Assembly (NCBI GenBank): GCA_027449865.1
Contig: DAIDKV010000184.1
Location: forward strand, 1 to 64,000
DNA length: 64,000 nt
Direction: 5' to 3'
DNA from: Planctomycetales bacterium
Lineage (GTDB): Bacteria > Planctomycetota > Planctomycetia > Isosphaerales > Isosphaeraceae
The notes under the pieces are model-generated. The model was not told where the DNA came from, did not search any database, and saw only the letters and a program-made list of their open reading frames with translations. The first letter of the stretch is position 1, and every line of letters starts with the position of its first letter. A program made the position numbers and the translations under genes. This document shows positions 1 to 34,494 of this stretch, one piece after another.

Positions 1-129
1 CTGCAGGTGCGGGCCGCGTCGCTGTGCGACGATGAGCGCCTCATCGAGCACCTGCGGACGCGGCCCGGTTATCCGTTCGTACGTCGACCCAAATCGCCCG
101 AATTCACAGCAGCGAAAAACCGAGGCTGA
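1..129 (+). CDS. C-terminal end of an unidentified protein (cut by window edge)
   Basis: The first base opens a frame of 42 codons that ends with TGA at 127-129. The peptide starts LQVRAASLCDDERL and contains TRPGYPFVRRP. Its composition is mixed and protein-like, unlike the Arg/Pro/Gly-rich junk of other frames nearby. Such a basic tail would fit a transposase or DNA-binding protein, but I do not recognise the family. The start lies outside the window. Confidence 0.35.
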   Translation: MQVRAASLCDDERLIEHLRTRPGYPFVRRPKSPEFTAAKNRG

Positions 130-244
130 CGTGCACCCTCCGAGGTCCCGAGGTCCGAGGGTTCCGAGGGTCCAAGGACCGGCGTCCCTGGCTGGCGACG
201 TCCGTTCGCCGCGAGGCGTGGGGGGGCCGGGTCGGGGCCAGACA

Positions 245-520
245 ATTGCTGGCGGCGTCTTGACAGGCCGGGCTACGGTAGCGGGCCTGAGGTCGGCGCG
301 GCTAGATCCAGCGTTCGCACCCCTTGAGCAGGCAGCGGCAGTAGGGATGCCAACGATGCGAACAGGATGATTGACCCGGCATTACGGCGTGGAGAGACTG
401 GGGACGGCCCACTGGAGGGATTTGCTCCCGAGCGGTCAGGCGGCGGGAAGTGCCACCTTCCGGCCGCCTCTTGGTGCCGACGACGACGTGCCCCGTCGCC
501 GGCGATCGAGCGGCACGCAT
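245..520 (-). pseudogene. Remnant of a cysteine-rich zinc-ribbon-like planctomycete protein
   Basis: Reading leftwards from about 335, the minus strand encodes HPYCRCLLKGCERWI, then an in-frame TAG at 302-304, then PRRPQARYRSPACQDAA in the same frame. Together these resemble a small Cys-rich protein known to me from Isosphaeraceae, with the pattern CxC...GCERWF.P..P.ARYCS..C. Here the stop follows the Trp-Ile, and one of the expected cysteines reads Arg. I infer an inactivated copy. The rest of 130-704 shows only Arg/Pro-rich open frames, with no convincing start or ribosome binding site. The family identification is from memory. Confidence 0.35.
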
Positions 521-704
521 TCACCAGCTTACTCGCCGGGACCCGGGCTCTCCACGCGATGAGGTCGACGGCCTGTGAATGATCAGAGAGCCGGAACCCA
601 GGACAAAAATCCGGAGCGAGCTGGTGGCGGCCGGCGCCGGCCCACGATTGAGGGATGGGCGCAGTCTCTGGACATCTAAACAGATCCCTGCATGGAGCAG
701 GACC

Positions 705-1205
705 GTGCGATTCCCCCGAATTTCGATCAAGACGCTGATGGGTTTGGTGCTGGTCGTCGCGCTGGATTTCGCGCTGTTTCGCATGCTGGGTCCCGATAGG
801 GCCCCGTGGGCGGCGCAGTTCTTCGACCTACTCATTGTTGGGGCGCTGCCGATGGCCAACATCCTGGCGCTTGCGCTGCTTCCGGGGGTGAGGCCGCCCT
901 CCGCCCGCGCAGCGATCTCGGAGTCCTTGCGCCGGTTCGAGGTTTCTGGCTGGGTTGTCGTCCACTGTTGGACGATCAGTTTCGGTCTCTTCACCGAGTC
1001 CTTGCACCAAAAGGCCACTTCAATTGCGACGGGGTTTGTCTTGCTGACCCGGGTCCCGGGGCCCGGTTTTGCCGTGGTGCTCATAGCTCTATTCCTGGTG
1101 CCCTCCCTGGCACTCGAACTGGCCGGAGCGTGGCTCTTGGCGTGGTATCGAACCCACCGTGGTGGAAGCACTTCCTTGCTCAGGGAGGCATCATCTGGGA
1201 ATTGA
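705..1205 (+). CDS. Small multi-span membrane protein, unknown function
   Basis: The GTG at 705 is the likely start: GGAG at 694-697 precedes it by 7 bases, and the product then begins MRFPRISIKTLMGLVLVVALDFALF, a basic end running into a hydrophobic segment, a layout common in planctomycete membrane proteins. At least three further hydrophobic stretches follow in 166 residues. No catalytic motif is visible. The last residues (GGSTSLLREASSGN) are not hydrophobic, while the neighbouring frame at about 1182-1273 encodes another membrane-like segment (WELIVALLMAVAVAT). A frameshift near 1170 may therefore have replaced the true C-terminus. No function can be given. Confidence 0.6.
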   Translation: MRFPRISIKTLMGLVLVVALDFALFRMLGPDRAPWAAQFFDLLIVGALPMANILALALLPGVRPPSARAAISESLRRFEVSGWVVVHCWTISFGLFTESLHQKATSIATGFVLLTRVPGPGFAVVLIALFLVPSLALELAGAWLLAWYRTHRGGSTSLLREASSGN

Positions 1206-1485
1206 TCGTCGCGCTGCTGATGGCCGTAGCCGTGGCGACCTCGACGGCGGTGAGACTTCGGAAGAGCCCGTGATACTCAGAGTGCCGCCCGCAAAATCCA
1301 GATCCATGCCCTCGGGCCCAGGTCCTAGCCAGACACACACGGGCCGTTTCCGCCCACATGACGGCCTGCCGGTAGCAGATGGACATGCCCCCCTCGCCCT
1401 GGTGCTCTCCCTGCTTGACTGCGGCATTCACAGGCCCCAGGTTGGGCCTCGTCCATTCCTCCCCACCTCACACATTTTTCGGTTT
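1206..1485. other. Intergenic stretch between two membrane-protein genes
   Basis: Apart from the possible out-of-frame continuation of the preceding gene up to the TGA at 1271-1273, I see no gene, repeat or clear terminator here. GC content drops near 1480 towards the lower-GC gene that follows. Confidence 0.4.
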
Positions 1486-1872
1486 TCAAATTAGCGATAC
1501 AGCCGTAAAAACCAAGCCGAGTACCAATGCGATAATTTCCAATGTCCCACACAGGTTAGCAGCCATAATCCAACTAGCGAATTCATTTGTAAGCGTTTTG
1601 ATTGTAGGCTCTGAGGATTCCCCTCCCGTGGCTTTCTCCTCAGCCGCTTCGGCGGCCTTCGTAGCTCCGTAGCCGAAAAACAAGTACGCAAGGGCTGAGA
1701 GTCCTACGGCAAACGCATAGAGAATGATAGCGACCACCACGCTTTTGGAATTCTGCGGCCGCCTAGCGGCGATTAGGAGGACTCCAAGAAGTATACTACC
1801 CATGATGCCACCCTGCTTGCATGCTTCTCCTCTCGCTTTGACAGCCTCGATCCAGAATGCAAGGTAAGTCAT
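1486..1872 (-). CDS. Small integral membrane protein, lower GC than its surroundings
   Basis: This 128-residue protein has three to four hydrophobic segments: an N-terminal one including GSILLGVLLIAA, a central one (VVVAIILYAFAVGLSALAYL), and a C-terminal one (LEIIALVLGLVFTAVSLI). A hydrophilic loop rich in Ala, Glu and Lys separates the second and third. No enzyme motif is visible. The base composition is clearly less GC-rich than that of the housekeeping genes, which suggests recent acquisition. The start ATG at 1872 has a GGATAT sequence just upstream as a weak ribosome binding site. It sits at the left edge of the defence-gene cluster, but nothing links it functionally to those genes. Confidence 0.6.
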   Translation of the reverse strand: MTYLAFWIEAVKARGEACKQGGIMGSILLGVLLIAARRPQNSKSVVVAIILYAFAVGLSALAYLFFGYGATKAAEAAEEKATGGESSEPTIKTLTNEFASWIMAANLCGTLEIIALVLGLVFTAVSLI

Positions 1873-2085
1873 CGCATATATCCGTGATTAATATTCATCC
1901 ACGCATAACGTCAATTGCCGCTTGAAATCCGCTCGCATATGGGACCAGTCCATCAAGGACAAGCGGCCAACACGAGGCCATCCGCCATCGCTGAATCTGG
2001 ACAGACATATTGATGCTATCCAAGGGCTCTGCCCCTGACTAGGCCAGTTGCCCATCCTACCCCCCTCCGTCTGGCGGACTGGCGG

Positions 2086-2266
2086 ATGGCCCATGGATCG
2101 GGTTGGTGCAGGCGACCTTCGGCCGCCGATCGTTCCCGCATCGCTCGGGACCTGACCCGACTGTCCCGCCCGCGCCCGATCAGCCCGGCGTGCGGTTCCG
2201 GCTCGGATTGCATCGACCCCGACCGGCGGATCGGGCTCAGCCGGGCTGAAGCGTCAGAACCGCGTC
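2086..2266 (+). repeat. Intergenic repeat family A, copy 1
   Basis: This GC-rich segment shares an ordered set of blocks with 3336-3536 and 5775-5975: ATGGCCC.TG.ATCGGGTTG, a hairpin of the form GGCGACC-TTC-GGCCGCC, a TCGCTCG block, and CCCGGCGTGCGG at about 2184. It ends at the stop codon of the Shedu-like gene (2254-2256). The hairpin is kept across copies despite base changes. The remaining 1873-2085 holds nothing I can name. Confidence 0.65.
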
Positions 2267-2883
2267 TCTATCCGATATTTCAGATCTTCGTACAACGCGT
2301 CAAAGGTGAGGCAGTGGACTTGCTTGCCGGCAACGAAGACGCTCTCATTTCGCCAGGTGAACCGATCTCGAAGGCCCGAGTTCGCCAGGTGCCGATCCCG
2401 TCCTATGATCAGAAGCATGACATAATGAATTTTGCTGGCGCCGAATCGGTTCTTGAATGCGGCGTTCCCCTTGTTGTTCTCGATCCAGAGGATCCAGTCG
2501 AGGAGCTGACTGAAGCCGTGTTCGAACCGAGGCGCCCATTCCGGGGTGGCTTTTGAGACCTTCCGGAAGATGCTCGTCGCACGAGCATCCTCGAATTCGA
2601 TGAAGCAGTATTGATTCCGCGTCGCGTCGCCGATGGCCAGATCTGCCACATGGTCGCCGAAGATGTCGAATTCCGATGCCGTGACAATATTCTGGAAATC
2701 GACGATCGACGGATTGTAGGTGCCCATGAAGGCGCAGAGCTGGGGATGGTCCCTGAAGAAGGGAAGGATGTCTTTCGATTCGCTCAATTCTGGCCGACCC
2801 GGATCATCGAGGAGTGCCCGGAAATCCTTGAGGTCGGCCTTGATCTGCTTCTTGCGGATCGGGACAGGGCTGAGGTTTGGCAT
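2254..2883 (-). CDS. Shedu-like (DUF4263) putative anti-phage nuclease
   Basis: The 209-residue product matches my knowledge of the DUF4263/Shedu (SduA) C-terminal nuclease family. The signs are an acidic position in a strand (VADLAIGD, D81), then FIEFED (E96 and E98), then the family's FEHGFSQLLDW helix (residues 120-130) and LLIIGRDRHL. Shedu proteins are PD-(D/E)XK-fold nucleases that act in phage defence. Known members usually have an extra N-terminal regulatory domain; this one has only about 60 residues before the core, so it is a short form. The gene lies 16 bases downstream of a small RelE-like gene on the same strand, probably one transcript. Family assignment is fairly firm; activity is inferred. 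Confidence 0.7.
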   Translation of the reverse strand: MPNLSPVPIRKKQIKADLKDFRALLDDPGRPELSESKDILPFFRDHPQLCAFMGTYNPSIVDFQNIVTASEFDIFGDHVADLAIGDATRNQYCFIEFEDARATSIFRKVSKATPEWAPRFEHGFSQLLDWILWIENNKGNAAFKNRFGASKIHYVMLLIIGRDRHLANSGLRDRFTWRNESVFVAGKQVHCLTFDALYEDLKYRIETRF

Positions 2884-2899
2884 CGGCGATTGGGAGGTT

Positions 2900-3241
2900 T
2901 CAGCCCTTCCTGACGGCCTGGGCCCTGGCGGTCTTCGCTCCCGGGCTCGCCTTCGATTTCTTCGCGGCGGAGGCAGGCGGCGGCACCTCTCTCATCACAT
3001 CGTGGATGACCACGGAGCCATCCACAATGGAATATTCGAGCTGGAAGCCATGCCCGGCGTCGCGCCTGTAGAGGAGATTTCCACTGGGCCCCTTGACCGC
3101 CGTGGTCTGGCGTGAGGCTTCGGCGAGGAAGCCTTGCCTGTCGCGGAGCACGGGCTCCAACGCCTTCCTCTGGCTGGCGGTCAGGGCGTCCATCGCGATG
3201 ACAACGCGATGGTTTATCTCAACGCCTTCCTTAACCGTCAC
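2900..3241 (-). CDS. Small RelE/ParE-like protein upstream of the Shedu-like gene
   Basis: GTG at 3241-3239 is the preferred start because GGAGGGG (3253-3247) lies 5 bases upstream; an ATG at 3274 is in frame but lacks such a site. The 113-residue product has a central part (residues 20-85) with helical KALEPVLRDRQGFLAEA and a strand series ending LEYSIVDGSVVIHDVM, which looks like the fold pattern of RelE/ParE toxins. The tail is rich in Lys and Ala. It could be a toxin-like regulator or partner of the downstream Shedu-like nuclease, but the resemblance is weak and no catalytic residue can be assigned. The paired order suggests co-expression. Confidence 0.5.
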   Translation of the reverse strand: MTVKEGVEINHRVVIAMDALTASQRKALEPVLRDRQGFLAEASRQTTAVKGPSGNLLYRRDAGHGFQLEYSIVDGSVVIHDVMREVPPPASAAKKSKASPGAKTARAQAVRKG

Positions 3242-3335
3242 AGCATCCCCTCCGACTGAGAACCACGGGATCATCGGCCATCATACATTGTACCAGCGAA
3301 TGTCGGCCCATGCCGAGGGCAAGCCGATCGAGAAA

Positions 3336-3536
3336 ATGGCCCCTGCATCGGGTTGTTGCGGGCGGCATCCGACCGCCGGCCCGTCCATCGCTCGTGCCGG
3401 CCTCGCCCGGAGCCAGGAACCGTCCAGCCCGCCCCTGCCCGACCGGCCCGGCGTGCGGACCCGGCCCGGGACCCATCGGGGTCCGATCGGCGGATCGGCT
3501 CAGTCGGCCGGAAGGGCGTCTGACGGTAGGCGACGT
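3336..3536 (+). repeat. Intergenic repeat family A, copy 2
   Basis: Same block order as copy 1: ATGGCCC.TGCATCGGGTTG, a GGCGG/CCGCC hairpin at about 3361-3378, GTCCATCGCTCGT, GCCTCGCCCGGAGCC, and GGCCCGGCGTGCGG, ending near GGCGACGTTCG. It lies between the divergent starts of the RelE/Shedu unit and the AAA/DUF4276 unit. The following 3537-3741 holds two copies of a TTTGGCCGCC word about 25 bases apart and otherwise nothing I recognise. Confidence 0.65.
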
Positions 3537-3741
3537 TCGTAGCGTTCTCCATTTGGCCGCCCGCTCCTCCCCGTTTGGCCGCCGCTTCTGGATTCCTTCG
3601 CATTCACTGAAGAGTTCGCCCACCAGTTCCAGAGGCTGCCATGGATCGGGCTGATCATCCCGATTAGAATGCGCCCGGGGATTGGATCAACCTTGAGATG
3701 GCCGCATGAATGCAGGAGGGCGAGTAAAAAGGTAGCGATCG

Positions 3742-4944
3742 ATGCTAAAGCATATCCACATTAAAAACTTTCGATCGTGTCACTCTACGTCCATCTCCTT
3801 GAATCGGAGCGTCTGCGCCATCGTCGGCAAGAACGGCGTTGGCAAGACCAATGTGCTAAGGTGCATTGATTGGGTGGCTTCGTCCTCCATCTCGACGGAT
3901 CCCGTTCGGGTCACGCAGGCCGGTAATGTCTCGGATGAGCCGGATGAGGTCTCTACCAAGCTCGTCATTGAGCTCGACGAGGGGCGATTCGAGTACAGCC
4001 TCTCGATCCCATGGCCCTACGCGAAGGGACCAAGGAGGGCCGCTTCACTACGCGATCGTTTGTCCCTGATCGACGACGATCGGCAAACGGACATCTTCCG
4101 GCGAGAGGGGGAGAAGATCGTCGTCCGCGACCGGGCCGAGCCGATCCGGGTCGCACGGGCGACCCCCTCGATTGCCGCGCTCCTCGCGCTTCTCCCAGAG
4201 AACGACGAGCTTCGGAAGCCGCTCTCGGCACTGAGTTCTTTCCTGGCGGGTATTCGCTACTATGCTCTTGAGGAGAAGGCGGAATATCGGGATTTCGTCA
4301 CGGAGTCGCAGTACAACGACTGGCTGATCAAATACCAGAACGAAGGGCTTCTGACCGACTCGGTCGCCCTACGCCTCATCTACATGCGGAATGAGGATAA
4401 GGAGCGATTCGAGGAACTGAGAGCATTGCTGGGCCCAGACGGCCTCGGTTTGCTCAAGCATTTCGACATTCTGGAATTGAACAGGACGGTCGAGCCAACA
4501 CCGTTCGAGGTTGACGCGCCCGAGACAAAGGTCTACCTGCCGGTCTTCACACCGTCCGAGCAGATGGGCGGCGCAGGCCGGCCCTTTCCGTTCTCCGATC
4601 TGTCGGCCGGAACACGCCGCGTCATCCGGATCGTGACGTCCCTCCTCTTTGACAAACGATCTCTGACGCTGATGGAGCAGCCGGAAGACTCGGTCCACCC
4701 GGGTCTGCTACGCAAGCTGATCGACATGATGAAGACGTATTCGTACAGCTCTCAGATTGTGTTTGCCACGCATTCCTCGGACGTGCTCGACATTCTCCGC
4801 CCGGAAGAGGTTCTCATGGCGACGGCCGTCGGTGGCCGAACCTCTGTGCGGCCACTCTCCCCGGATGAGATGGCGCGAGCCAGGCGGTTCCTGAGCAACG
4901 AGGGCTCGCTCTCGGATTTCCTCGAACCTTTCGATGAGCCATAG
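3742..4944 (+). CDS. AAA ATPase of a two-gene ATPase/TOPRIM cassette
   Basis: The protein begins MLKHIHIKNFRSCHS and has a Walker A motif GKNGVGKT (residues 29-36), an ABC-type signature region (FSDLSAGTRRV), a Walker B-like strand (LTLMEQPEDSVHP) and a switch motif (VFATHSSDVL). This is the compact SMC-like AAA_15/AAA_21 ATPase found in OLD, RloA and PARIS AriA systems. At 400 residues it lacks a fused nuclease; the next gene, two bases downstream, supplies a TOPRIM-like domain. An AAAGG 9 bases upstream supports the start. By analogy with OLD/PARIS the ATPase may sense a phage event and hold or release its partner. That role is inferred; the ATPase class is clear. Confidence 0.8.
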   Translation: MLKHIHIKNFRSCHSTSISLNRSVCAIVGKNGVGKTNVLRCIDWVASSSISTDPVRVTQAGNVSDEPDEVSTKLVIELDEGRFEYSLSIPWPYAKGPRRAASLRDRLSLIDDDRQTDIFRREGEKIVVRDRAEPIRVARATPSIAALLALLPENDELRKPLSALSSFLAGIRYYALEEKAEYRDFVTESQYNDWLIKYQNEGLLTDSVALRLIYMRNEDKERFEELRALLGPDGLGLLKHFDILELNRTVEPTPFEVDAPETKVYLPVFTPSEQMGGAGRPFPFSDLSAGTRRVIRIVTSLLFDKRSLTLMEQPEDSVHPGLLRKLIDMMKTYSYSSQIVFATHSSDVLDILRPEEVLMATAVGGRTSVRPLSPDEMARARRFLSNEGSLSDFLEPFDEP

Positions 4945-4946
4945 AG

Positions 4947-5531
4947 ATGTTTGCTGTCCTCGCTGAGGATCGCTCTGACACCGACTCGCTGGTGGTCCTG
5001 ATCAAACGAATCCGTGGCATGAACAATGCCACCGTTCAGAAGAAAGGATTCAGCGGTTGCGGTGAGTTATGCCGCAAGGCGTGGAGCCACATCCAGGACT
5101 TCGCCGATAGGGGCGCGACGCATTTTATCGTCTGCCACGATTCCGACGGAAACGACCCGGTCGAGATCAGGAAGAAAGTCCTGGAGAGCCTTGGCGCAAA
5201 GATTATTGTGCCGAAGAATTGCTGCATCGTCGTGCCCGTCCAGGAACTGGAAGCCTGGATCATCGCGGACGAGGAGGCGATCCATAAAGCCATACCAACG
5301 CTGCTCATCAAGCCGGTTGCACGCCCCGAGACGGGGACGAGCCCCAAGGAGTGGCTCGTCAATGAATCCAGGCGGGGACGATCCAGACCGCTCTACGTCC
5401 CGACCATCCACAACGTAAAAGTCGCCGAACATCTCGATTTCAAAAAGGTCGAGACGAAATGCCCGTCCTTCTGCGATCTCGTCGCCTTTGTCAGCCCTCT
5501 GAAATCCGGTGATGGCTCGCCCGGGTCCTGA
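4947..5531 (+). CDS. DUF4276-like protein with TOPRIM-type acidic residues
   Basis: The 194-residue product has the DUF4276 layout: a first strand with an acidic residue (MFAVLAEDRSDTDSL, E7), a second strand ending HDSDGND (D65 and D67), and the family's VQELEAWIIADEEA helix (E100, E102, W104, D108). E7 with D65xD67 fits the metal-binding set of TOPRIM folds, so it may be a nuclease. ATG follows the ATPase stop by two bases, implying translational coupling. In PARIS the partner of the ATPase is a DUF4435 TOPRIM protein; here it is shorter and from a different family. Nuclease action and defence role are inferred from fold and neighbour. Confidence 0.72.
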   Translation: MFAVLAEDRSDTDSLVVLIKRIRGMNNATVQKKGFSGCGELCRKAWSHIQDFADRGATHFIVCHDSDGNDPVEIRKKVLESLGAKIIVPKNCCIVVPVQELEAWIIADEEAIHKAIPTLLIKPVARPETGTSPKEWLVNESRRGRSRPLYVPTIHNVKVAEHLDFKKVETKCPSFCDLVAFVSPLKSGDGSPGS

Positions 5532-5586
5532 TCGCATGAGTAGCCCCGGAATGAGCGCGTACCCCTGACAATTGAGGAGGCGGGAG

Positions 5587-5766
5587 ATGCCGAAGAAGAT
5601 CCGCCCGAAATCGAACCCGGCGGCGAAGACGATCCGGAGGGCGGCGAAGGCCTCCCGCTCGATGACCGTCCGGGAGAGGCTCCAGCTCATGCTCAAGGCA
5701 GGCCTGGTGACCCAGGAGCAGGCTCAAAAGGCAACCCCGGTTGAAATCACCGAGAGGCCCGAGTAG
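5587..5766 (+). CDS. Small basic protein, unknown function
   Basis: A 59-residue frame starts at ATG 5587, preceded by a strong GAGGAGG (5574-5580). The N-terminal half is very basic (MPKKIRPKSNPAAKTIRRAAK), and the second half contains an amphipathic VRERLQLMLKAGLVTQEQAQKA helix-like stretch. It lies 55 bases after the DUF4276-like gene on the same strand and could be its third member, perhaps a nucleic-acid-binding accessory. I do not recognise a family. The good ribosome binding site is the main reason to keep it. Confidence 0.45.
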   Translation: MPKKIRPKSNPAAKTIRRAAKASRSMTVRERLQLMLKAGLVTQEQAQKATPVEITERPE

Positions 5767-5774
5767 CGAGCCCG

Positions 5775-5975
5775 ACGCGCCGGGTTGGTGCGGGCGACCT
5801 TCGGCCGACGTCCCGTCCATCGCTCGTCCCGGCCTCGCCCGGAGCCGTCCAGGCCGCCCCTGCCTGATCGGCCCGGCGTGCGGTTCCGGCCCGGGTTGCA
5901 CCAGTCCCGCCCGACGGCCTGGGATCCGCCGGGCGGCTCGGACCGGAAGGGGGAGCGTCTGGAAGTTGTCGATAT
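5775..5975 (+). repeat. Intergenic repeat family A, copy 3
   Basis: Aligns by eye with copies 1 and 2: CGGGTTGGTGCGGGCGACC, hairpin arms GGCGACC and GGCCGAC, GTCCATCGCTCGT, GCCTCGCCCGGAGCC, then GGCCCGGCGTGCGG at about 5870-5883. It ends in GAGCGTCTGGAAGTTGTCG. It separates the ATPase/DUF4276 cassette from the helicase gene. 5976-6058 holds nothing else that I can identify. Confidence 0.65.
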
Positions 5976-6058
5976 TTGCTCCTGTCCCCCTGGTATGTCC
6001 GCCGAGATGGCGCAGACCCCGATCGCTTGCGAAGCGACTTTGTCGGCCGTAGCCTGGA

Positions 6059-9000
6059 GTGCATGGATCCCTCCGCCTCGGTTCGTCGATCTTGTCGGGG
6101 ACGACAAACGTGTCACGCACGCCCAAGGATTCGACACCTCATCCGCTCCAGCCTGGCCTGTATGAACAGGTGGTGGATCGGCTCCTCGAGTGTAGGCTAA
6201 CCGAATTGCAAGGATCGCCCGTCCAGGTCGACGTCGAGGAGTTCGATGCCGGGGACAGCCACGCCGTGCTGGCCGATCATCTCCGAAGTGTGGTCCGAGA
6301 ATCTCTGGAGGGCCTGACAGGCGAGGATCGGCTGGCGCGGCAGCTTGAACTGATGAACCGGATCTTACGCGAGATCGAGGCGTTCGACCCAGAGAGCCAG
6401 CGGTCACTCGCGACACCGGCTCGTCGCTTGCTGGGAATCTTCCCTCGAGAACCGCTCGGTGGCCGACGGCCTGAAAGGCCCGACACTCCCCTGGCGCTCG
6501 GCTGCCTGCTGGCCGGGACCCGGCTCGATCCCAGCCTCGTCTCGCAGATCCGAAAGGAACTCGCGTCGGCCGACCGCGTCGATATCCTTTGCTCGTTCAT
6601 CAAATGGAGCGGCATCCGCATTCTGGAAGAGGACCTCCGCGCCTTCACAGCCCGGCCTTCTACCCGTCTCCGGGTGCTGACAACGAGCTACCTCGGCGCA
6701 ACGGATCTGAAGGCAATCGACCTCCTTCAATCGATGCCCAGTACCGAGGTCCGTGTCTCCTACGACACCCACCGCACACGACTCCACGCCAAGGCCTACC
6801 TGTTCCACCGTGAGACCGGCTTCGGCACAGCCTACGTCGGCTCGGCGAATCTCTCGCATCCGGCCCTCACCGAGGGCCTGGAATGGACCATCAAGCTGAG
6901 CCAGTACGAGTCGCCCTACCTCTGGGATCGCGCCACCGCCACGTTCCAGACCTATTGGGAAGACGGCGAGTTTGAGCGGTACCACGCCACCGAACGATCC
7001 CGATTGAAGAGAGCGCTGGAGGGAGAGAGATCATTCGGATCGTCGGGCCCCGAGCCCTTCCTCTTCGAACTGCGGCCGTATGGTTTCCAGCAGGAGATTC
7101 TCGAACGTCTCGATGCGGAGCGCAAAGTTCAGGGGCGAGACCGACACCTGGTTGTGGCCGCCACCGGGACCGGCAAGACGATGATTGCCGCGTTTGACTA
7201 TCGACGTTGGGCCCGGCAAACCGCTCCGGCAACCGGCCCGTTGCCCCGTCTCCTGTTCGTCGCTCACCGTGAGGAATTGCTCAAACAGAGCCTCCAAACC
7301 TTCCGGGCCGTGCTCCGGGAACCCAACTTCGGGGAACTGCTCGTCGGTGGACGATCGCCGGACGAGCTCGACCATCTGTTCGTGTCGATCCAGAGCTACA
7401 ACAGTCGGTCGCTCCATGAGCTACCCGCCGATCGCTACGAGTATATCGTCGTGGATGAGTTCCACCATGCCGCGGCGCCGAGTTATACGCGATTGCTCGA
7501 CCATGTGCGGCCCCGCGTGCTGCTGGGACTGACCGCCACGCCCGAACGGACTGACGGCCTCGACGTACTGACGCACTTTGGCGGGCACCTCAGCACGCAG
7601 ATTCGCCTGCCGGATGCGATCAATCGCAAGCTCCTTTCGCCGTTCCAGTACTTCGCCATTTCCGACCCCGTCGACCTCAGCGGACTTCGATGGCAGCGCG
7701 GTGGATACTGCCTCGAAGAGCTCGATCGGATCTACACCGGTAACGACCTGCGCGCCGCCCTGGTGATCGAGAAGGTCCGCTCCATCGTTCTCGACCCCCG
7801 AAAAATGCGGGCGCTGGGCTTCTGCGTTAGCGTCAGCCACGCTGAATACATGGCGGCCAGGTTCAACCAGGCGGGAATCCCCGCCGAGGCCCTCTCGGCC
7901 CAGACCGATCGGGTGAATCGCCAAACGGCGCAGTGCCGCCTGGGCCGCTGCGAGGTCAACGTGCTGTTCGTTGTCGATCTGTACAACGAGGGCGTAGACA
8001 TCCCCGAGATCGACACAGTGCTGTTCCTTCGCCCAACCGAGAGCCTCACGGTGTTTCTCCAGCAACTCGGCCGCGGTCTACGGCTCCATGAGGAGAAGGA
8101 GTGCCTGACCGTTCTTGACTTCGTCGGCCAGGCCCATCGAAGCTTCCGGTTCGATCTCAGGTACCGGGCCCTGCTGACGGATCCGTCAGTGCCTCTCAAG
8201 GAACAGGTCGAACAGGGATTCACCCATCTGCCTGCCGGCTGCACGATCCTCATGGAACGCGTCGCACGGCAGCATGTGCTCGAAAACATCAAACGGAATC
8301 TGAGTCAGACCCGATCGTCCCTGATTGGTACTCTCCGCGAACTGGCCGCGGCGCTCGGGAGGCCCCCACGGCTCGCTGAGTTCCTGGAGTGGGCGAATAT
8401 GGAACCAGACGAGCTTTATCGACGTAAGTTCAGTTTGTCTCGCCTGAGCGTCGAGGCGGGTCTCCGCGAATCGTTCCAGGACGCTGAAGAACCTCGCCTC
8501 ACAAAAGGGCTGCGTCGGGTCGCCCACTTTGCCGACGCGGATCTGATCCACCAACTCCTGATCCTGCTCGACCCCGGAGCGACGTCGCGTTCGGCTCTGC
8601 GACTCGATACGAGAACCGAGCGACAACTATTGATGCTCGAACTTGGGCTTTGGACCCCGTCCGGCCTATCGCTCTCGCCCCAGGAGGGACTGAGACAGCT
8701 CGATGCCAACCCGACGCTTCGCGACGAGCTTCGTGAGCTGCTTGTCTACCGCCTCGGCTGCATTGATTCCGTGGGCCCGCCACTGGTTCTGCCATTCGAC
8801 TGCCCACTGACGCTCCATGCCCCGTATACCCGCGATGAGGTTCTTGCCGCACTCGGCCGCTGGACACGTACCGAACAGCCCGACATGCGCGAAGGGGTGC
8901 TCCACCTCCCGAATCTGAAGGCGGACGTCTTCTTCGTCACATTGCACAAGACGGAGAAAGACTACTCGCCGACGACGATGTACCAGGATTATGCCATTAA

Positions 9001-9274
9001 CGAGTATCTCTTCCACTGGCAGTCCCAGAGCACCACCTCGGCCGACTCTCCCACAGGGCGCCGCTATGTCGAGCACTCCCAACGGGGCTACACCATCCTG
9101 CTGTTCGGCCGTGAGCACAAGAACCGAAATGGCCTCGCCCAACCGTTCTTCTTCCTCGGACCGGCCCGATACGTCGACCACACCGGCAGCCGACCGATCA
9201 GCATCACATGGCGGTTGGAGTACGCGCTACCCTCGCGGCTATTCCGCACCCTGGCCCGTCTCGCGGTGGCGTGA
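6059..9274 (+). CDS. PLD-like / DEAH helicase / DUF3427 fusion protein
   Basis: This 1071-residue protein has three parts. The N-terminal third carries a phospholipase-D-type nuclease motif (RLHAKAYLF...YVGSANLSHPAL, about residues 240-270). The middle is a superfamily 2 helicase with Walker A ATGTGKT, a DEFHHAA motif II, LTATPERT motif III and QLGRGLRL motif VI. The C-terminal 250 residues (TTMYQDYAINEYLFHWQ, GYTILLFGREHKN) match DUF3427. Such proteins are widespread and common in defence-rich regions, which suggests cleavage or unwinding of foreign DNA. The GTG at 6059 is uncertain; an in-frame GTG at 6110 is also possible. It stands alone, bounded by family A repeats. Domain calls are firm, biological role inferred. 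Confidence 0.85.
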   Translation: MHGSLRLGSSILSGTTNVSRTPKDSTPHPLQPGLYEQVVDRLLECRLTELQGSPVQVDVEEFDAGDSHAVLADHLRSVVRESLEGLTGEDRLARQLELMNRILREIEAFDPESQRSLATPARRLLGIFPREPLGGRRPERPDTPLALGCLLAGTRLDPSLVSQIRKELASADRVDILCSFIKWSGIRILEEDLRAFTARPSTRLRVLTTSYLGATDLKAIDLLQSMPSTEVRVSYDTHRTRLHAKAYLFHRETGFGTAYVGSANLSHPALTEGLEWTIKLSQYESPYLWDRATATFQTYWEDGEFERYHATERSRLKRALEGERSFGSSGPEPFLFELRPYGFQQEILERLDAERKVQGRDRHLVVAATGTGKTMIAAFDYRRWARQTAPATGPLPRLLFVAHREELLKQSLQTFRAVLREPNFGELLVGGRSPDELDHLFVSIQSYNSRSLHELPADRYEYIVVDEFHHAAAPSYTRLLDHVRPRVLLGLTATPERTDGLDVLTHFGGHLSTQIRLPDAINRKLLSPFQYFAISDPVDLSGLRWQRGGYCLEELDRIYTGNDLRAALVIEKVRSIVLDPRKMRALGFCVSVSHAEYMAARFNQAGIPAEALSAQTDRVNRQTAQCRLGRCEVNVLFVVDLYNEGVDIPEIDTVLFLRPTESLTVFLQQLGRGLRLHEEKECLTVLDFVGQAHRSFRFDLRYRALLTDPSVPLKEQVEQGFTHLPAGCTILMERVARQHVLENIKRNLSQTRSSLIGTLRELAAALGRPPRLAEFLEWANMEPDELYRRKFSLSRLSVEAGLRESFQDAEEPRLTKGLRRVAHFADADLIHQLLILLDPGATSRSALRLDTRTERQLLMLELGLWTPSGLSLSPQEGLRQLDANPTLRDELRELLVYRLGCIDSVGPPLVLPFDCPLTLHAPYTRDEVLAALGRWTRTEQPDMREGVLHLPNLKADVFFVTLHKTEKDYSPTTMYQDYAINEYLFHWQSQSTTSADSPTGRRYVEHSQRGYTILLFGREHKNRNGLAQPFFFLGPARYVDHTGSRPISITWRLEYALPSRLFRTLARLAVA

Positions 9275-9284
9275 TGGCTCTGGC

Positions 9285-9480
9285 CGCGGCTTCGGTCGGT
9301 AGATCGCTGATCCACGAAGGCCCGGCCATCCCTCCGATCTCCTCCCCGATCCGCCCGGCTTCGGCCCCGGGCCGGCCCGGGGTGGGGAGGCCCGACCGAC
9401 CGCCGGGCTCATTAGAGCAGGTTGGACCGGCCGGAGAGGGCGCCCGGCGGTTGCCGACGTTCGCACCGTCCCCCTTTTCG
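9285..9480 (+). repeat. Intergenic repeat family A, diverged copy 4
   Basis: Between the convergent helicase gene and the next minus-strand gene lies a GC-rich stretch whose end (CCGGCCGGAGAGGGCG, then GCCGACGTTCGC) resembles the 3' part of copy 2 (CGGCCGGAAGGGCG, then GGCGACGTTCG). The 5' blocks are poorly kept and the CCCGGCGTGCGG block is missing, so this is a weaker call than copies 1-3. Confidence 0.35.
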
Positions 9481-9546
9481 GTTCTCCGGGCACGCTTGTT
9501 GAGATGCTCTCAGCGCCACGGCCCTGGGGGTGATCTGGGCTGATAT

Positions 9547-10794
9547 TCAGGCCAGTTTCCGGGCGAAATCCTCTCCAATCGTTTCCACCTCCTTGATGAG
9601 TGCCTCGTGCCATCGTTGCACCGTCTGCACGGGAACGCGGCTATCCCGATGATTCAGGACGGCGGCGCGGACATCCTCGCCCAGGATCGAGGACAGGTAG
9701 GAGTAGCGAAAGCCCTCGGTGTTCTCGATCGCCTGTCTGGTCGCGCCGGCCATGCTCGAGTCTGGATTGACATAGACGTAGTGAAATTCCACACGCTTGA
9801 ACCCCAGCGACCTGAAGGCCAGAAAGTTGATCAGCTTGTTCTTCGCCGCGTCGTTGCCCTCCGCGCGACGTGGACCACGCTGCGATCCTCCTGCCTCGCC
9901 GGCATCTCCCGGGGATTCCGGCTGGTGCCCGATCGTTAGCTCGATCACACAGACGGCGTGATTCTCGACGTGCTTTTCCCAGCCATCAGGCGGGTCCGTC
10001 ATGGCCTTACTGTCGCCCGCGCACTCATAGAGCAGAATGTCTATTTCATTACTCTGGAACGGCTTCTCGATAGTGACATGCGAGCCGCCTATCATGACGC
10101 CCGATTTGGCCATGGCGAACCAGAGGAGCGTCTCCTCAAGCAGCGTGCCAAAGTCTTTGGTACCGGGTTCGACACCCGTCGTGTAATTGCTCAGGATTTC
10201 ATAGCGCAGGTTAATCGGGAATGCGGAACCGCCGACCATCGGGCCGTAGAGATCTGGCTCGACGTAGACAGTCCTGGCCAGATAGGACCAGAGCAGCTCC
10301 TTGCGGGAAGAGCAGCATTCCTGCGTTTTTGAAGGCTCCACAAGGCCGCTGACGTCCCATTCTTCCCTGGCGTGCGCGAGGTTGTAGCGGAGCTTGTTCA
10401 CCACCGGGCAGAGATGTTTCTCAGTATCCGAGAGCGGCCCCGAGGCACGATCCAGCGGGCAGATAAAATAATCAGGATCGAGCAAGGACGCACCTCGCCG
10501 AGCTGGCGCGGCGAGGTGTGTTGTCCGCTCATACAGAGCAAGGATGGAGGATTCACTTTCCTTGCCCATCGGCAGAATGGCGGGGCGGACGAGGTCCTTT
10601 TCGCTGTTGAGAACGCCGCAGAACAGCCACCCCGTGAAGAACAGAAAGGATAGTTCCCTCAATCCCTCATAATCGCGGATAACTAGAGGAGTGCGCTTCC
10701 GAGAATTCGGCTTCGAACAGAAATGTTGCTCGACCAGCGCCCAACGCGCAAGATAGTCATCATCGTGATCGAATCGCAGCATTTGGTGTTCCAT
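9547..10794 (-). CDS. Unknown 415-residue protein, possible PD-(D/E)XK effector next to a Panacea antitoxin
   Basis: The preferred start is ATG at 10794 (MEHQMLRFDHDDDYL), 7 bases after the Panacea gene's stop; a longer frame upstream overlaps that gene and reads as shadow. I do not recognise the family. Residues 249-290 run NEIDILLYE, then VIELTIGH, so D252 and E285-x-T287 are arranged like the core of PD-(D/E)XK nucleases, with Thr where Lys is usual and a possible swapped Lys in AAKNKLINF (about 317-324). A helix at 135-145 (NKLRYNLAHAREEW) looks HEPN-like but lacks a clear RxxxxH motif. The tight pairing with an antitoxin-type gene suggests it is the toxin or effector. This is inference. 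Confidence 0.6.
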   Translation of the reverse strand: MEHQMLRFDHDDDYLARWALVEQHFCSKPNSRKRTPLVIRDYEGLRELSFLFFTGWLFCGVLNSEKDLVRPAILPMGKESESSILALYERTTHLAAPARRGASLLDPDYFICPLDRASGPLSDTEKHLCPVVNKLRYNLAHAREEWDVSGLVEPSKTQECCSSRKELLWSYLARTVYVEPDLYGPMVGGSAFPINLRYEILSNYTTGVEPGTKDFGTLLEETLLWFAMAKSGVMIGGSHVTIEKPFQSNEIDILLYECAGDSKAMTDPPDGWEKHVENHAVCVIELTIGHQPESPGDAGEAGGSQRGPRRAEGNDAAKNKLINFLAFRSLGFKRVEFHYVYVNPDSSMAGATRQAIENTEGFRYSYLSSILGEDVRAAVLNHRDSRVPVQTVQRWHEALIKEVETIGEDFARKLA

Positions 10795-10801
10795 CACCGA
10801 G

Positions 10802-11242
10802 TCAGAGCAGTGCCTGCCCGAAGGTTTTGTCGCGGAACCGCTCGCCGCCGTAGACGTGGTCCAGAAGTTCACGCAGCGGGCGGTTGCGCCAGCGTTCGCC
10901 CACCTGATCGAGCAGGGCGACGAATTCGGGATCGAGCTTTACCCCTTCCAGCCTGGTCTGATTGCCGGACCGGTAGCAGTAGGTCTCGCCCCGGTCCCAG
11001 GGTTTCTTGCTCTCCACGATCTCGATGCCGTCCATCCACTCGACGGCCTTCAGCATCTCCCGGGAGAACGGTCCATGGTTCCAGCGGTAATACTTGGCTT
11101 CCGTGTATGGGTGCCCGTGCCTCTCCGCCCACTCAAGATCGGCCAGATAGACCAACTTCAGGAGCCGCGTGCGGCCGTCGATCGGTCCCCACGCATCAAC
11201 GAGGTGCTCGATGGACTTGCACAGTTTTGGAGTAGTGTTCAT
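10802..11242 (-). CDS. Panacea-domain (DUF4065/SocA-like) antitoxin
   Basis: ATG at 11242 starts a 146-residue protein with the Panacea signature: a first helix (SIEHLVDAWG), TRLLKLVYLADLEWAERHG (about residues 20-40), then YTEAKYYRWNHGPFSREMLKAVEWMDG. Panacea is known as an antitoxin domain that occurs beside many unrelated toxins, and in phage-encoded and signalling proteins. Here it is the first gene of a two-gene unit whose second gene begins 7 bases later, the usual antitoxin-then-toxin order. A GGGGCG about 6 bases upstream may serve as ribosome binding site. An in-frame ATG at 11323 would add 27 residues but is less family-like. Confidence 0.8.
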   Translation of the reverse strand: MNTTPKLCKSIEHLVDAWGPIDGRTRLLKLVYLADLEWAERHGHPYTEAKYYRWNHGPFSREMLKAVEWMDGIEIVESKKPWDRGETYCYRSGNQTRLEGVKLDPEFVALLDQVGERWRNRPLRELLDHVYGGERFRDKTFGQALL

Positions 11243-12037
11243 TTTCAGCGCCCCACGCGACAAACTGCCGGCAGGTAAGCTCTCTCGAGCGTCAATCGAC
11301 AATTCTCTGTCGCAGACGAACATCTTCTGAACAAGTGTCAGGCAGGCCGACTAGGAAGACATTGGCGAATTCCAGATGCCGCGCAATTGTACCTTGCGCA
11401 GGAAAGCGCGTAACTAGCCAATTCCTCTATTACTATAGTATACGTACGTCCACTTCGTTTCCAGGGGCTCGTCTCAGATTCTGCGTTTTTTCGAACGCGA
11501 GCGGTGCAAGTGGCTGCAAAACAACAATTTGCGGTCACCGGATCCTAAGCCGAAGGTCCTAGGGAAGCGAACTGGGACACGAGGAGCGAGAACGGAACGG
11601 GGGGGGCGAAACAGTGACGGGGGGCAGGCCACCGGCGAGACTCCGATTCACTAGACCGTCCTCAGCCATCCGCCGTCCACCCGATCCCATCCCCTGCCCG
11701 CCCGATTCCGACCCGCGAGGCCGCCCGGGGCGATCGCGGATGGTCGGGCCCGATCGGGGCGGTCGACGGGGTTCGATGTCGCGGGTGGTAGGTGTCGCGA
11801 GCGTCGGGCAGGTAAACGGGGAGGCCGTTCGATTCCACGGGGATGGGAAAAGTCGCTGCTGCACAGGGCTTTCAGCGGACGGTTATAATGCGGGATAGAC
11901 AAGTCGGTCGGACTTTCCAGCCCAACCCGCTCAACCTGATCAGGCTGGGAAGCCCGACCGACCTGAACCCGAAACATGGAGGCGAGGGAGAAGATGGGTC
12001 GATCGTATCTGCGAGGACCGAGCCGAGGAATTCGCCG
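11243..12037. other. Intergenic region upstream of vapBC
   Basis: No convincing gene in this 795-bp stretch. Around 11420-11450 the DNA is AT-rich (ATTACTATAGTATACGTACG) and could hold promoters for the Panacea unit on the minus strand. 11698-11733 is a copy of repeat family B, listed separately. Open frames here are Pro/Arg-rich artefacts of GC-rich sequence. Confidence 0.4.
11698..11733 (+). repeat. Repeat family B, copy 1
   Basis: A 36-bp block starting CCGCCCGATTCCGACCCGCG matches 13545-13580 at 35 of 36 positions. Similarity continues more weakly to the right, where both copies have a GGGC-CGATC-type continuation. The two copies bracket vapBC and the decayed genes after it. Written as GRPRGSESGG, the antisense reading occurs at both sites. 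Confidence 0.6.
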
Positions 12038-12250
12038 ATGAACACCATCCCGGAATCGACGGCCATCCCCCCCGAGCTCATGGCGGAGCTTCAGGAACGC
12101 GCCGAGCGCGCGGCCCGGGGCCTCATCGATCCGGAGACCAGGCGGATCGCCCGAGAGCGAATGGACCGGATGCGCGAGGAGTTTCGTCGGCGGCACGGCG
12201 AGGTGAACCTGGCCGTCGACCTGATCCGCGAGGCCCGGGACGGCGCATGA
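12038..12250 (+). CDS. vapB: VapB-type antitoxin (probable)
   Basis: A 70-residue, highly charged protein starts at ATG 12038 with GAGGA 8 bases upstream. Its stop overlaps the start of the PIN-domain toxin gene by 4 bases (ATGA, 12247-12250), the usual layout of a type II toxin-antitoxin pair. The sequence is Arg/Glu-rich and helical (LMAELQERAERAARG, RRIARERMDRMREEFRRRHG) and carries no clear AbrB or RHH motif. The call as antitoxin rests mainly on position and charge. It would bind and neutralise VapC and probably repress the operon. Confidence 0.65.
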   Translation: MNTIPESTAIPPELMAELQERAERAARGLIDPETRRIARERMDRMREEFRRRHGEVNLAVDLIREARDGA

Positions 12251-12669
12251 GATACGTGCTGGATTCCTGCGTGGCCGTCAAGTGGTTCCTCGCCGAGCCT
12301 GATTCGACGACGGCCATCCGCATCCTGGATGAGGCCGACCGGCAAATCCATGAGCTGTTGGCCCCGGATGTTTTCCCCATCGAGGTTGCGCATGCGCTCT
12401 CTCGTGCCGAACGGCGCGGCCTGATCCGGCCGCCCGCCGGCCCCGAGCACCTGTCGGACCTCCTTGCCTCCTTGCCCACCCTGCATACGTCATTGATCCT
12501 GTTGCCGAGGGCCTACGAAATCTCCTCGCAGGCCCGCATCGGCGTGTATGACTGCCTCTATGTGGCGCTGGCCGAGCGTGAAGGTTGCGAGCTGCTGACG
12601 GCCGACGACCGCCTCGCCCGTGCGCTCCGACCGACGCATCCCTTCATCGTGCTGCTCGATTCGATCTGA
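12247..12669 (+). CDS. vapC: VapC-type PIN-domain ribonuclease toxin
   Basis: The 140-residue product has the PIN-domain acidic set: D7 in the first strand (MRYVLDSCVAVKWF), E43 in FPIEVAHALSRAER, D95 in the YDCLYVALAE segment, and D113-D114 in LLTADDRLARAL. Length and motif spacing are standard for VapC toxins, which cleave RNA with metal ions. It is translationally coupled to the antitoxin gene by an ATGA overlap. All key residues appear intact, in contrast to the decayed vapBC at 21.5 kb. It may help stabilise the surrounding accessory region. Confidence 0.88.
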   Translation: MRYVLDSCVAVKWFLAEPDSTTAIRILDEADRQIHELLAPDVFPIEVAHALSRAERRGLIRPPAGPEHLSDLLASLPTLHTSLILLPRAYEISSQARIGVYDCLYVALAEREGCELLTADDRLARALRPTHPFIVLLDSI

Positions 12670-12782
12670 AAGCGGGGGGACGAACGGGGACCAGGGGACA
12701 GGCGACAACGGTGGCGTCCGGAGTGTATCCGAGAATTCCGAGGGCCACCCGTATGCGTTAACATCCGGGCTGGGCGGAGCGG

Positions 12783-12980
12783 CTGGTTGCGGAGCGGGCC
12801 GCCACACCGGGCAAGACTCTTCCCCCAGCCATCTCACGGGAGATCCAGGTCTGCGGCCAGCGGATCGGCGAACTCTGGAACGAGTCGTTGCGATATCACG
12901 AGAACCAGGCTTACCCGCACGAAGTAACGAAGGTCCGCCTCGCCGAGGAATGGCTCCTGGTCAACCTGGAAACTCTCTGA
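12783..12980 (+). pseudogene. Probable 5'-truncated small gene without a standard start
   Basis: The frame opened after TAA at 12759-12761 and closed by TGA at 12978-12980 encodes a protein-like sequence including REIQVCGQRIGELWNESL and HEVTKVRLAEEWLLVNLETL. There is no ATG, GTG or TTG before this conserved-looking part; a CTG at 12783 preceded by a GGGCGGAG stretch is the only candidate. The stop lies 10 bases before the next ATG (12991), so the two probably formed one operon. I read it as a gene that lost its 5' end. The family is unknown to me. Confidence 0.4.
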
Positions 12981-12990
12981 GAGACCTCGC

Positions 12991-13543
12991 ATGCCGCGGA
13001 AAAAGATCGAGGTCCCATCGGCGATGACATCGGCAGGTGCCGGCCTGGTGCGGAAGCTGGCGGAAGAGTTGAATAGCAAGCGTGAATTCGGCCAGCCTCT
13101 GATCTATGAGCAGGAGTATCCGACCAGGAAGTCCCGCGTCACGGTGATCTGGGACGAGTGGGCCGACGCCTCCCTGGAGGAACGGTCCTCGGTCATCCTG
13201 CGCGCCTATGAACTGGCCGAAGGGAAAGAGGCTCGCGATCCGATCGCCCTTGCGAGCGGTCTGACCGTGCCGGAAGCGACCGCCGCCGGGATCTTGCCGT
13301 TCCGGATCATCTCCGGCTTGCGATCGTCCGATCCGATCCGGCCCGAGGAAGTGGAGGCCGCGATGACGGAACAGGGACGACGGGCCTCAACTCCGGTTCG
13401 CCACGAAGGAGGAGGCCGAGGCCTGTCGCAAGCAACTCTCCGAGCGACTGCCCGGCAGCGAGCCGATCTGGATCATCTGCTCCGATCTTCACGTTTACGA
13501 CCACCTGAGCCTGGCCGACCCTGCAAGCGCGGTCGTGGGGTAA
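12991..13543 (+). pseudogene. Frameshifted gene for an unknown conserved-looking protein
   Basis: The first frame (MPRKKIEVPSAMTSAGAG..., about 125 codons) reads as a normal soluble protein up to EEVEAAMTEQG near 13380. The sense then moves to the +1 frame, which encodes PQLRFATKEEAEACRKQL, then PIWIICSDLHVYDHLSLADP, and stops at TAA 13541-13543. The original frame beyond 13390 becomes Arg-rich and implausible. One base lost near 13367-13390, in a run of GGGACGACGGG, would explain this. It follows the truncated gene at 12783-12980 closely. A programmed frameshift is possible but less likely given the decay around it. Confidence 0.5.
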
Positions 13544-13544
13544 A

Positions 13545-13580
13545 CCGCCCGATTCCGACCCGCGAGGCCGTCCGGGGCGA
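13545..13580 (+). repeat. Repeat family B, copy 2
   Basis: Matches 11698-11733 in 35 of 36 bases, with one C/T difference at GGCCG[C/T]CCGG. It begins two bases after the stop of the frameshifted gene. Confidence 0.6.
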
Positions 13581-13750
13581 GCAGACGGACGGGCTGGACG
13601 GGCTCCGATCGACCCGACGCCGCCGGACCCTTTCCCGACCGAGGAGGACCCGGGCCCGACAGAGGGGCTGAAGCGGCCTCGGCTCCCGAACCCTCGCCGA
13701 AGCCCGAGGAGGCCAGGAAAGGCCCAACACCCCCCAGGGAGAGCGCCGAG

Positions 13751-13840
13751 ATGTACGCGGACATCACCCGGCGGATCACGGAACTCCAGCGCGAGCGGCG
13801 CGGATACCGGCAACGCATCCTCAAGTCCATCAACGGCTGA
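13751..13840 (+). pseudogene. Short C-terminal-like remnant
   Basis: ATG 13751 to TGA 13840 encodes 29 residues (MYADITRRITELQRERRGYR...). Upstream in the same frame lies a Pro/Glu/Ala-rich linker-like stretch from about 13620 without a start codon. It looks like the end of a lost larger protein. Between 13841 and 14016 I see nothing further. Confidence 0.3.
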
Positions 13841-14016
13841 CCGCCAGGTCAGGGCGTGGCTCACGTCATCCGGGCGCCGACGTCAGGCAGCAGGTCCACG
13901 CCGGGCGGGCGGATCGTTCTCGGGGAAGGAACGAGCTTCGAGGCACCTCATTTGCGGTCCACTGCGTCCGAGATCCAGCCTCGCTCGATCCCCTGCAAGA
14001 ACGAGGGCCACCCACC

Positions 14017-15456
14017 ATGCGAATCCGGCTCGTCCTGATGATCCTGGCAGGAACGGCCGCGGCAAACTCCCCGACCTCGGCCGCTGATCGGACCGTTTTC
14101 CTCTACGATAATGGTTCCCAGCAGGCGGCCCTGATTCACGACTACGCCAACTGCTGGGCCGAGTACGTGGATGGAGTGGATGGGTATCGGTTCGTTGAGA
14201 CGAATCGGTCGGAGGGAGTGGTCGAACTGATTGACCCCGGCCGCGACGTCGGCCTGAGGTTGCACGATCGTCGAGTCGAGATCCGGCTCCAGGGCGCGAA
14301 GACCTGGCAACCGTGGGGGGAAGGTCGATGGATCGAAAAAGGCGCGCTACCCCGGTCGATCCGGTTCCAGCCGACCGACTGGAAGATCCGGCTTGCCTAT
14401 TTCCTACCGACCGACCGCCAACCGCTGGATGATTACGAGCGTCGCGTCCGGGTCGTCATGGAGCTGGTCAACGACATCTATACCGCCGACTTCCAGGCGA
14501 AGGGGCTCCGGAGCGAGGGCCTCCCGTTCGAGGTCGATGGCCGGGGTCGGCCGGTGGTGCACCTGGTCCGCGGGTCGAAACCGGCCTCTTATTACAATTT
14601 CGCCCCTGAGTTCGACACCACCTTCCGGCATTTCGACAGGGTTGCCGAGGAGATGCCGGCCAGGATCGGATCACCGCGGCGGCACATGATCGTCGTCTTC
14701 CCCGAGACGTACGACGCGGGCCCGGCTCCGGTGGAATGGCGGGGCTCGGTGGGCGTCGGGACGCATTACTCGGCCGATGGTGGCCTGGCGGTGATGTCGG
14801 CCTGGATCCTCCGCGACGAGTTCTGCGCCCGCGACCTGGAAGGCCAGAAGCGCTACCTTCGCGACGCGACGCCGATCCCCGGCCGGACGGCGTTCGGAAC
14901 CGGCCGGGCGAACTCGCCGAGGTTCGAGTTCATCGAGGACGGATACGGGGCGACCGCGCACGAACTGGGGCACGCCCTCGGCCTCCCGCACGACAACAGG
15001 AGCCCGGATTTCCTCATGGGCCAGGGCTTCCGCCATCTAGGCGAGAACTACCGGACGCCCGAGGGTCGGAAGCGTCCGGTGGCCTTCTCGCCCGAGAACA
15101 CGCGCCTGCTCGCGGCCTCGCGATACCTGGTTCCGGGCGTCGACCGGACCGACAACATCCCGCCCGAGGCGAGGGTCCGCGTCGAATGGAGGCGCGGGCG
15201 TGCGCCCTCGGCGCTCGTCGCGATCCGGGCGTCCGACGACCGGGCCCTCCGCGCGGTCGTCCTCGTGGATACGGACCGCGACACGGTCGTCGGCGGGGCC
15301 GATCTGAAGGGCCGGAGCCAGTTGCTCACGCACCGGATTTCCCGCCGGTTGATCGTGGACCGGAACCAACCGCGACGCAACCTGTTCCGTCTTTTAGTGA
15401 TGGTCATCGACGGCGGCGGCAACATCGCCCGAATCGAGTCCACAACGCCGTGGTGA
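14017..15456 (+). CDS. Secreted metzincin-type zinc metalloprotease
   Basis: The 479-residue product starts with a signal peptide (MRIRLVLMILAGTAAANS). The zinc site HELGHALGLPHD spans residues 315-326: H315, H319 and H325 bind zinc, E316 is the catalytic base and G322 is the conserved turn of metzincins. A likely Met-turn follows (DFLMGQG, about 335). Upstream is a long N-terminal region of unknown fold, and downstream about 100 residues of beta-rich sequence (ALVAIRASDDRALRAVVL). Metzincins cut proteins outside the cytoplasm; substrate unknown. It stands alone with no clear operon partner. The zinc motif is decisive for the class. Confidence 0.85.
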   Translation: MRIRLVLMILAGTAAANSPTSAADRTVFLYDNGSQQAALIHDYANCWAEYVDGVDGYRFVETNRSEGVVELIDPGRDVGLRLHDRRVEIRLQGAKTWQPWGEGRWIEKGALPRSIRFQPTDWKIRLAYFLPTDRQPLDDYERRVRVVMELVNDIYTADFQAKGLRSEGLPFEVDGRGRPVVHLVRGSKPASYYNFAPEFDTTFRHFDRVAEEMPARIGSPRRHMIVVFPETYDAGPAPVEWRGSVGVGTHYSADGGLAVMSAWILRDEFCARDLEGQKRYLRDATPIPGRTAFGTGRANSPRFEFIEDGYGATAHELGHALGLPHDNRSPDFLMGQGFRHLGENYRTPEGRKRPVAFSPENTRLLAASRYLVPGVDRTDNIPPEARVRVEWRRGRAPSALVAIRASDDRALRAVVLVDTDRDTVVGGADLKGRSQLLTHRISRRLIVDRNQPRRNLFRLLVMVIDGGGNIARIESTTPW

Positions 15457-15659
15457 CTTGTACAGACGGATCGGCCCTCCCGCAAGACATGTTACCCATT
15501 TGCCTCATCGATCGCCGACGTGTTGCGTTTCTCCACCAGCCTTTGCTTTTTTCGCCGATTTTTTGACACACACTTCCTCCGAGGCGAAGATCGAATTCGC
15601 ACCACGTGACGTGCGATAGAAATTCCATCCGTCGATGACTTGCGACTCTGGAGGATCGG

Positions 15660-34333: not shown

Positions 34334-34340
34334 TTATCCC

Positions 34341-34424: not shown

Positions 34425-34494
34425 GGTACGGCCCGACTCACTCCTTCACGGCGCCCCGCCCTCCCGAGGTTCGATCCTTGATATAGCAACCCAC

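Follow-up and report, generated by a model that had tools for sequence, protein, structure and literature searches.

Genus-restricted GC-rich bipartite spacers at the borders of defence and toxin-antitoxin modules in a planctomycete: possible homology patches for module exchange

How defence and toxin-antitoxin (TA) modules are swapped in islands without an obvious mobile element is an open question, and it is raised by the beginning of a 64,000-nucleotide stretch of DNA from a Planctomycetales bacterium (the window; contig C184 of the own genome, G000). A preliminary description of this DNA reported three clear copies and one diverged copy of a GC-rich intergenic repeat, all in direct orientation, and proposed that whole cassettes could be exchanged by recombination between them. 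The repeats, which fall into two families, F1 and F2, and the genes between them are as follows.

2086..2256, plus strand: repeat A (F1), left half and truncated right half, ending at the sduA stop codon
2254..2883, minus strand: SduA (Shedu, DUF4263); Pfam SduA_C E 5e-23, PADLOC SduA E 9e-67
2900..3274, minus strand: small protein beside SduA; no Pfam or PADLOC match
3336..3556, plus strand: repeat B (F1, full); blastn and R1 model
3742..4944, plus strand: ATPase (AriA/HEC-01A/AbiLi-like); Pfam AAA_21 E 2e-27, PADLOC AriA and HEC-01A
4947..5531, plus strand: DUF4276 protein (HEC-01B); Pfam DUF4276 E 1e-9, PADLOC HEC-01B E 3e-13
5587..5766, plus strand: 59-aa ORF adjoining repeat C; tblastn matches elsewhere
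5775..5991, plus strand: repeat C (F1, full); blastn, R1 147 bits at 5770-5975
6059..9274, plus strand: PLD-nuclease/helicase, type IV restriction-like (mREase_IV); PADLOC mREase_IV E 7e-248
9300..9478, plus strand: repeat D (chimera, F2 left/F1 right); nhmmer F2 and F1, shuffle test
9547..10794, minus strand: protein of unknown family; no Pfam or PADLOC match
10802..11242, minus strand: SocA/Panacea-domain protein (antitoxin-like), start from codon-usage prediction; Pfam PF13274 E 9e-10 on the longer frame 10802-11323
11625..11842, plus strand: F2 element (full), 194 bits as part of the F2 seed; BLAST copies in G000:C44, G003:C749 and G001:C430
12038..12669, plus strand: VapB-like/VapC (PIN) toxin-antitoxin pair; PIN E 6e-16, small upstream ORF by coding prediction
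13542..13600, plus strand: F2 core fragment at the far end of the array; nhmmer F2 72-133, 29.9 bits

Copies A, B and C proved to be genuine direct repeats of about 170-215 bp, lying, as had been described, at the borders of the Shedu, ATPase/DUF4276 and PLD-helicase units. Within the window, blastn aligned B with C at 84% over 122 bp (E 1e-33), A with C at 74% over 159 (E 3e-22) and A with B at 70% over 180 (E 9e-17), and the R1 covariance model recovered A at 2087-2259 with 124.8 bits. Smith-Waterman scores of 85, 104 and 146, against a shuffled mean of about 20 (sd 2.5), were equalled by none of 500 dinucleotide shuffles, so the copies are not an effect of composition; the exact runs that they now have in common measure only 12-27 bp. 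A coding or pseudogene origin was rejected, as the six reading frames across the repeats gave no Pfam match, and so was a known structured or regulatory RNA family: the one match from an Rfam cmscan of 1-16000, to mir-3160 at 11901-11964, is weak, below the gathering score and outside the repeats. The hairpin said to be kept despite base changes did not hold up. None of its seven pairs is changed on both sides (covariation score 0), and four of the seven fail to pair in two or more of the five copies. The consensus-fold covariation term of F1 is unfavourable (+3.5), whole repeats fold no better than shuffles (z -0.6 and +0.5), and a search of the F1 element for coding or conserved RNA-structural signal found none. 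The GC-rich core of F2 has six pairs with a double change in five sequences, a weak signal in too few sequences to decide.

The fourth, diverged copy at 9300-9478 is likewise real, but it is a hybrid rather than a simple F1 copy. With an F1 profile built from A, B, C and two copies from the sister genome G003, and a separate F2 profile, its right half matches F1 (HMM 107-258 at 9319-9477, 43 bits), while its left half matches F2 (13-91 at 9300-9367, 14.6 bits; 0 of 400 shuffles equal). Profile searches found hybrids with the same arrangement at G003:C115 4415-4658 (G3c) and G001:C60 542-293 (G1), joined at about F2 position 99 and F1 position 103; their left halves give 20.5 and 20.9 bits to F2, again equalled by none of 400 shuffles, and against F1 the three left halves reach 2.9 bits (D) or nothing. 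The G003 and G001 hybrids count as one event because their loci are syntenic (95% nt), with D of the window as a separate one. F1 and F2 are thus bipartite elements with interchangeable left and right halves. The short repeat at 11698/13545 was the lead to family F2, and two F2 elements that share the orientation of the other repeats, at 11625-11842 and 13542-13600, carry the array beyond the end at 9480 that had been given for it, to about 13.6 kb, where it separates Shedu, ATPase/DUF4276 (HEC-01), PLD-helicase, Panacea and VapBC-like modules. Beyond 13.6 kb the 64-kb window contains no F1/F2 element. From 16 kb on the genes are mostly ordinary; this part also holds an AT-rich tandem repeat at 34327-34427 in otherwise GC-rich surroundings, and three paralogues in tandem, spaced about 1.3-1.4 kb, at 57215-61229.

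Within arrays, element orientation is uniform whatever the gene strand (six of six in the window, 3/3 on C115, and 2/2 on each of C448, C44 and C749); G002:C452 has one weak match in the opposite orientation. Uniform orientation would also be expected from tandem duplication of element-module units.

Strong matches to the sequence-only covariance models R1-R3 occurred only in the genus of the window (five species, fragmented assemblies), R1 and R2 having been run more widely and R3 on genus genomes only. Among the matches listed for the own genome, full F1 copies are A, B and C alone, partial F1 copies lie on C159, C44 and C219, and F2 lies on C184 and C44. A further 326 kb from 20 other contigs, a sample not strictly random in that C71 was chosen for a 37-bp F2 BLAST match on it, gave no F1/F2 match at E<=0.01. 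The scatter among housekeeping genes that the preliminary description had named as telling against module exchange was therefore not what we found. A plasmid source was rejected, since blastn of the repeats against 72,556 plasmids gave no match, and in titles and abstracts of the literature we found nothing on such repeats in planctomycetes.

Strong elements in the window lie beside Shedu, HEC-01, mREase_IV, Panacea and VapBC genes. Those elsewhere lie beside RelB/YafQ (own-genome C44), ParE TA and HEC-01 (G003:C115, G001:C60), VapC (G003:C448), a RES toxin (G002:C343), and Phd and PIN genes (G003:C160). On own-genome C159, an F1 left half adjoins the truncated remnant of a PglX (BREX) gene, and farther out come DUF5615 and PIN genes. 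Weak right-half matches adjoin Phd/ParE pairs (G004:C844, G003:C537) and a HigBA-like pair (G002:C452), and also ordinary loci. With TA/defence status assigned by hand after the loci had been seen, from ORF prediction and Pfam/PADLOC, 9 of 18 independent loci (a conservative count) had a TA/defence neighbour, compared with about 3 of 30 sampled intergenic gaps whose 58 distinct flanking genes were scanned by Pfam (one-sided Fisher p 0.003); for strong elements only, the figure was 6 of 8 (p 0.0007). One of the three background positives is a PIN gene on the non-randomly chosen C71, and the background may be higher, its first batch covering the best 25 of 66 families; at 4/30, the p values become 0.008 and 0.002.

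Three further observations concern these loci. At L031 (G000:C159) 4225-5095, the F1 left half is followed by the C-terminal PglX remnant, which suggests a deletion beside the element. At L184 (G003:C160), a short tyrosine recombinase gene (1148-1705) lies in the same TA/defence island as the F2 element. At L185 (G003:C10) 6988-8343, the start of a gene occurs twice, once on each side of an F2 right half, which looks like a duplication around that element.

The clearest case of a module with changed neighbours is the HEC-01 unit with its 59-aa ORF, which lies between repeats both in the window and in G003:C115 (87.6% nt identity between window 3420-5558 and G003:C115 4508-6669, and 82% over 5571-5982). 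Its neighbours in the window are Shedu and the PLD-helicase; in G003 a sulfatase gene stands on its left and, on its right, a ParE-type TA. Module content does change at repeat borders. C218 of the own genome has the sulfatase/DUF1501 locus intact (85% nt over L029 1-4100), with no HEC-01 after it, and there homology to G003 stops before the F2/F1 hybrid. The left join falls inside B, where identity rises from about 40% to 74-80% at around 3415-3420. On the right side, identity is 92-96% to about 5770, then declines through C (84, 80, 76, 64...) to less than 50% after 5983; from the start of repeat C orthology to G003 falls to the level of paralogues, and the right join can be placed no closer than the start of or within repeat C. 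The idea that both joins lie at the repeat centre was dropped, as MaxChi and sliding identity put only the left one (B, ~3415) near it. MaxChi on C (G3a versus B) gave a change at profile positions 38-43 (p 0.003), C matching G3a outside the repeat (20:2) and B more than G3a inside it (27:20); on G3a (C versus G3b), the change lay at 41-44 (p 0.002). In these alignments the pattern fits exchange between copies in one genome, or gene conversion among them.

Because about half to two thirds of the length of these spacers is repeat, the position of a join is weak evidence alone, and the argument for exchange rests on mosaic copies and changed neighbours together. Judged from sequence comparison, the chimeric halves and within-genome homogenisation show that the copies have recombined with one another. 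Modular exchange as first proposed is supported in outline by the changed HEC-01 neighbours, the chimeras and the MaxChi result, but among the five fragmented genomes of the genus we found no strain with a cassette cleanly deleted and one repeat left. Other units recur as well: the block 2251-3275 (SduA and the small protein) at 80% nt in G031:C515, of another genus, and the PLD-helicase unit (6025-9270) at 82% nt in G008:C359, there without repeats. The small protein at 2900-3274 is a possible Shedu partner that travels with SduA. The 59-aa ORF occurs in G003, G000:C159, G004:C255 and G019:C300 (59% aa in the last), with and without HEC-01 genes.

Several other readings bear on these data. 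F1 and F2 could be small non-autonomous mobile repeats (MITE-, REP- or BOX-like) piling up in the tolerant intergenic DNA of accessory islands, a possibility to be taken seriously even if we consider it unlikely; that island context and shared orientation are then secondary is likewise possible but improbable. BOX/REP-type intergenic families are small, genus-restricted, modular and non-coding, as F1 and F2 are, and low copy number, modular halves and partial copies beside ordinary genes (C219, C10, C1125, C73) would suit such an origin. F1 and F2 differ from those families in their few copies clustered at TA/defence module borders and in showing no conserved hairpin. Moreover, copies A-C show no terminal inverted repeats or target duplications by eye, with no empty site to compare, neighbouring copies share their orientation, an integrase search gave no recombinase-like match on the contig of the window, and the chimeras and MaxChi place exchange inside the element rather than at whole-element insertions. 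Passive hitch-hiking, in which old spacer DNA was duplicated and moved together with TA/defence modules but played no part in their exchange, strikes us as rather improbable. It accords with the 59-aa ORF and adjoining F1 left half travelling together in C159, and with the modules found in other genera (G008, G031, G027, Aquisphaera) with no convincing flanking repeats; chimeric elements and within-genome homogenisation speak against it. A role as transcription terminators or promoters insulating each module is very unlikely: several elements do lie in spacers just upstream of a TA/defence operon and in its direction (C44, C452, C844, C343), but in the window the same repeat strand is found between divergent genes (B), tandem genes (C) and convergent genes (D). 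This speaks against such a role, as does the lack of a conserved hairpin.

Integrons offer one of the closest parallels, in that direct repeats separate small TA/defence cassettes that change neighbours, and an integron integrase (TIGR02249 above cut-off) is present in the sister genomes G001, G003 and G004. A degenerate integron, with F1/F2 as attC-like sites for such an integrase, is nonetheless largely refuted. Identity with attC was rejected on sequence: the core boxes RYYYAAC...GTTRRRY were not seen on inspection of aligned F1 or F2 copies, and an attC-type imperfect palindromic fold is not conserved between F1 copies (0/7 compensatory) and is weak in F2. The sites on G001:C65 are canonical, about 70 bp and attC-like (CTAACG...CGTTAG), unlike F1/F2, and no F1/F2 was found on the three integrase contigs. 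Own-genome integrase matches were all below cut-off, with none on C184, where the array runs to the contig end and a linked gene could be missing. The F1/F2 array also departs from integron arrays in carrying modules on both strands with no linked integrase found, and in having its left join inside the element. The integron itself, at L149 (G001:C65) 1-1609 and 2505-3443, combines an above-cut-off integrase with four attC-like sites spaced at about 500 bp; in this same-genus assembly it could be real or bin contamination. A doubtful variant would make F1/F2 the recombination sites of an integron-like system unrelated to attC, a candidate trans-acting recombinase excising or inserting cassettes at the shared core; equally doubtful is that each non-autonomous TA/defence cassette has a right half-site at one border and a left half-site at the other. 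If true, it would represent a shufflable defence library for these planctomycetes.

F1/F2 copies mark TA/defence module borders and took part in recombination. For the further reading, that they are genus-specific GC-rich bipartite spacers of about 200 bp acting as homology patches for swapping defence/TA modules, we put the chances at about even. Direct-orientation F1/F2 spacers lie between small self-contained defence or TA modules and would offer patches of shared homology for RecA-type homologous recombination, involving either one incoming and one resident copy or two resident ones; the module between copies could thereby be gained, lost or replaced, leaving flanking genes untouched. One module between copies with different neighbours (HEC-01) and mosaic copies (D, G3c, G1) are what we observe. 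Weighing against homology patches, exact runs of 12-27 bp are short substrates for efficient exchange by RecA, other genera carry the modules but not the repeats, and about half of the weak element loci adjoin ordinary genes. Minimal mobile elements of Neisseria exchange modules through flanking homology, and there too alternative accessory modules are apparently replaced by recombination in shared flanks; those flanks are a unique pair of conserved genes, whereas the F1/F2 flank is a spacer repeated at several loci. Because the elements occur in arrays, closed genomes of a single genus would allow a direct test of the homology-patch idea, and a repeated spacer supplying shared sequence where modules meet would offer a simple means of mixing defence repertoires.
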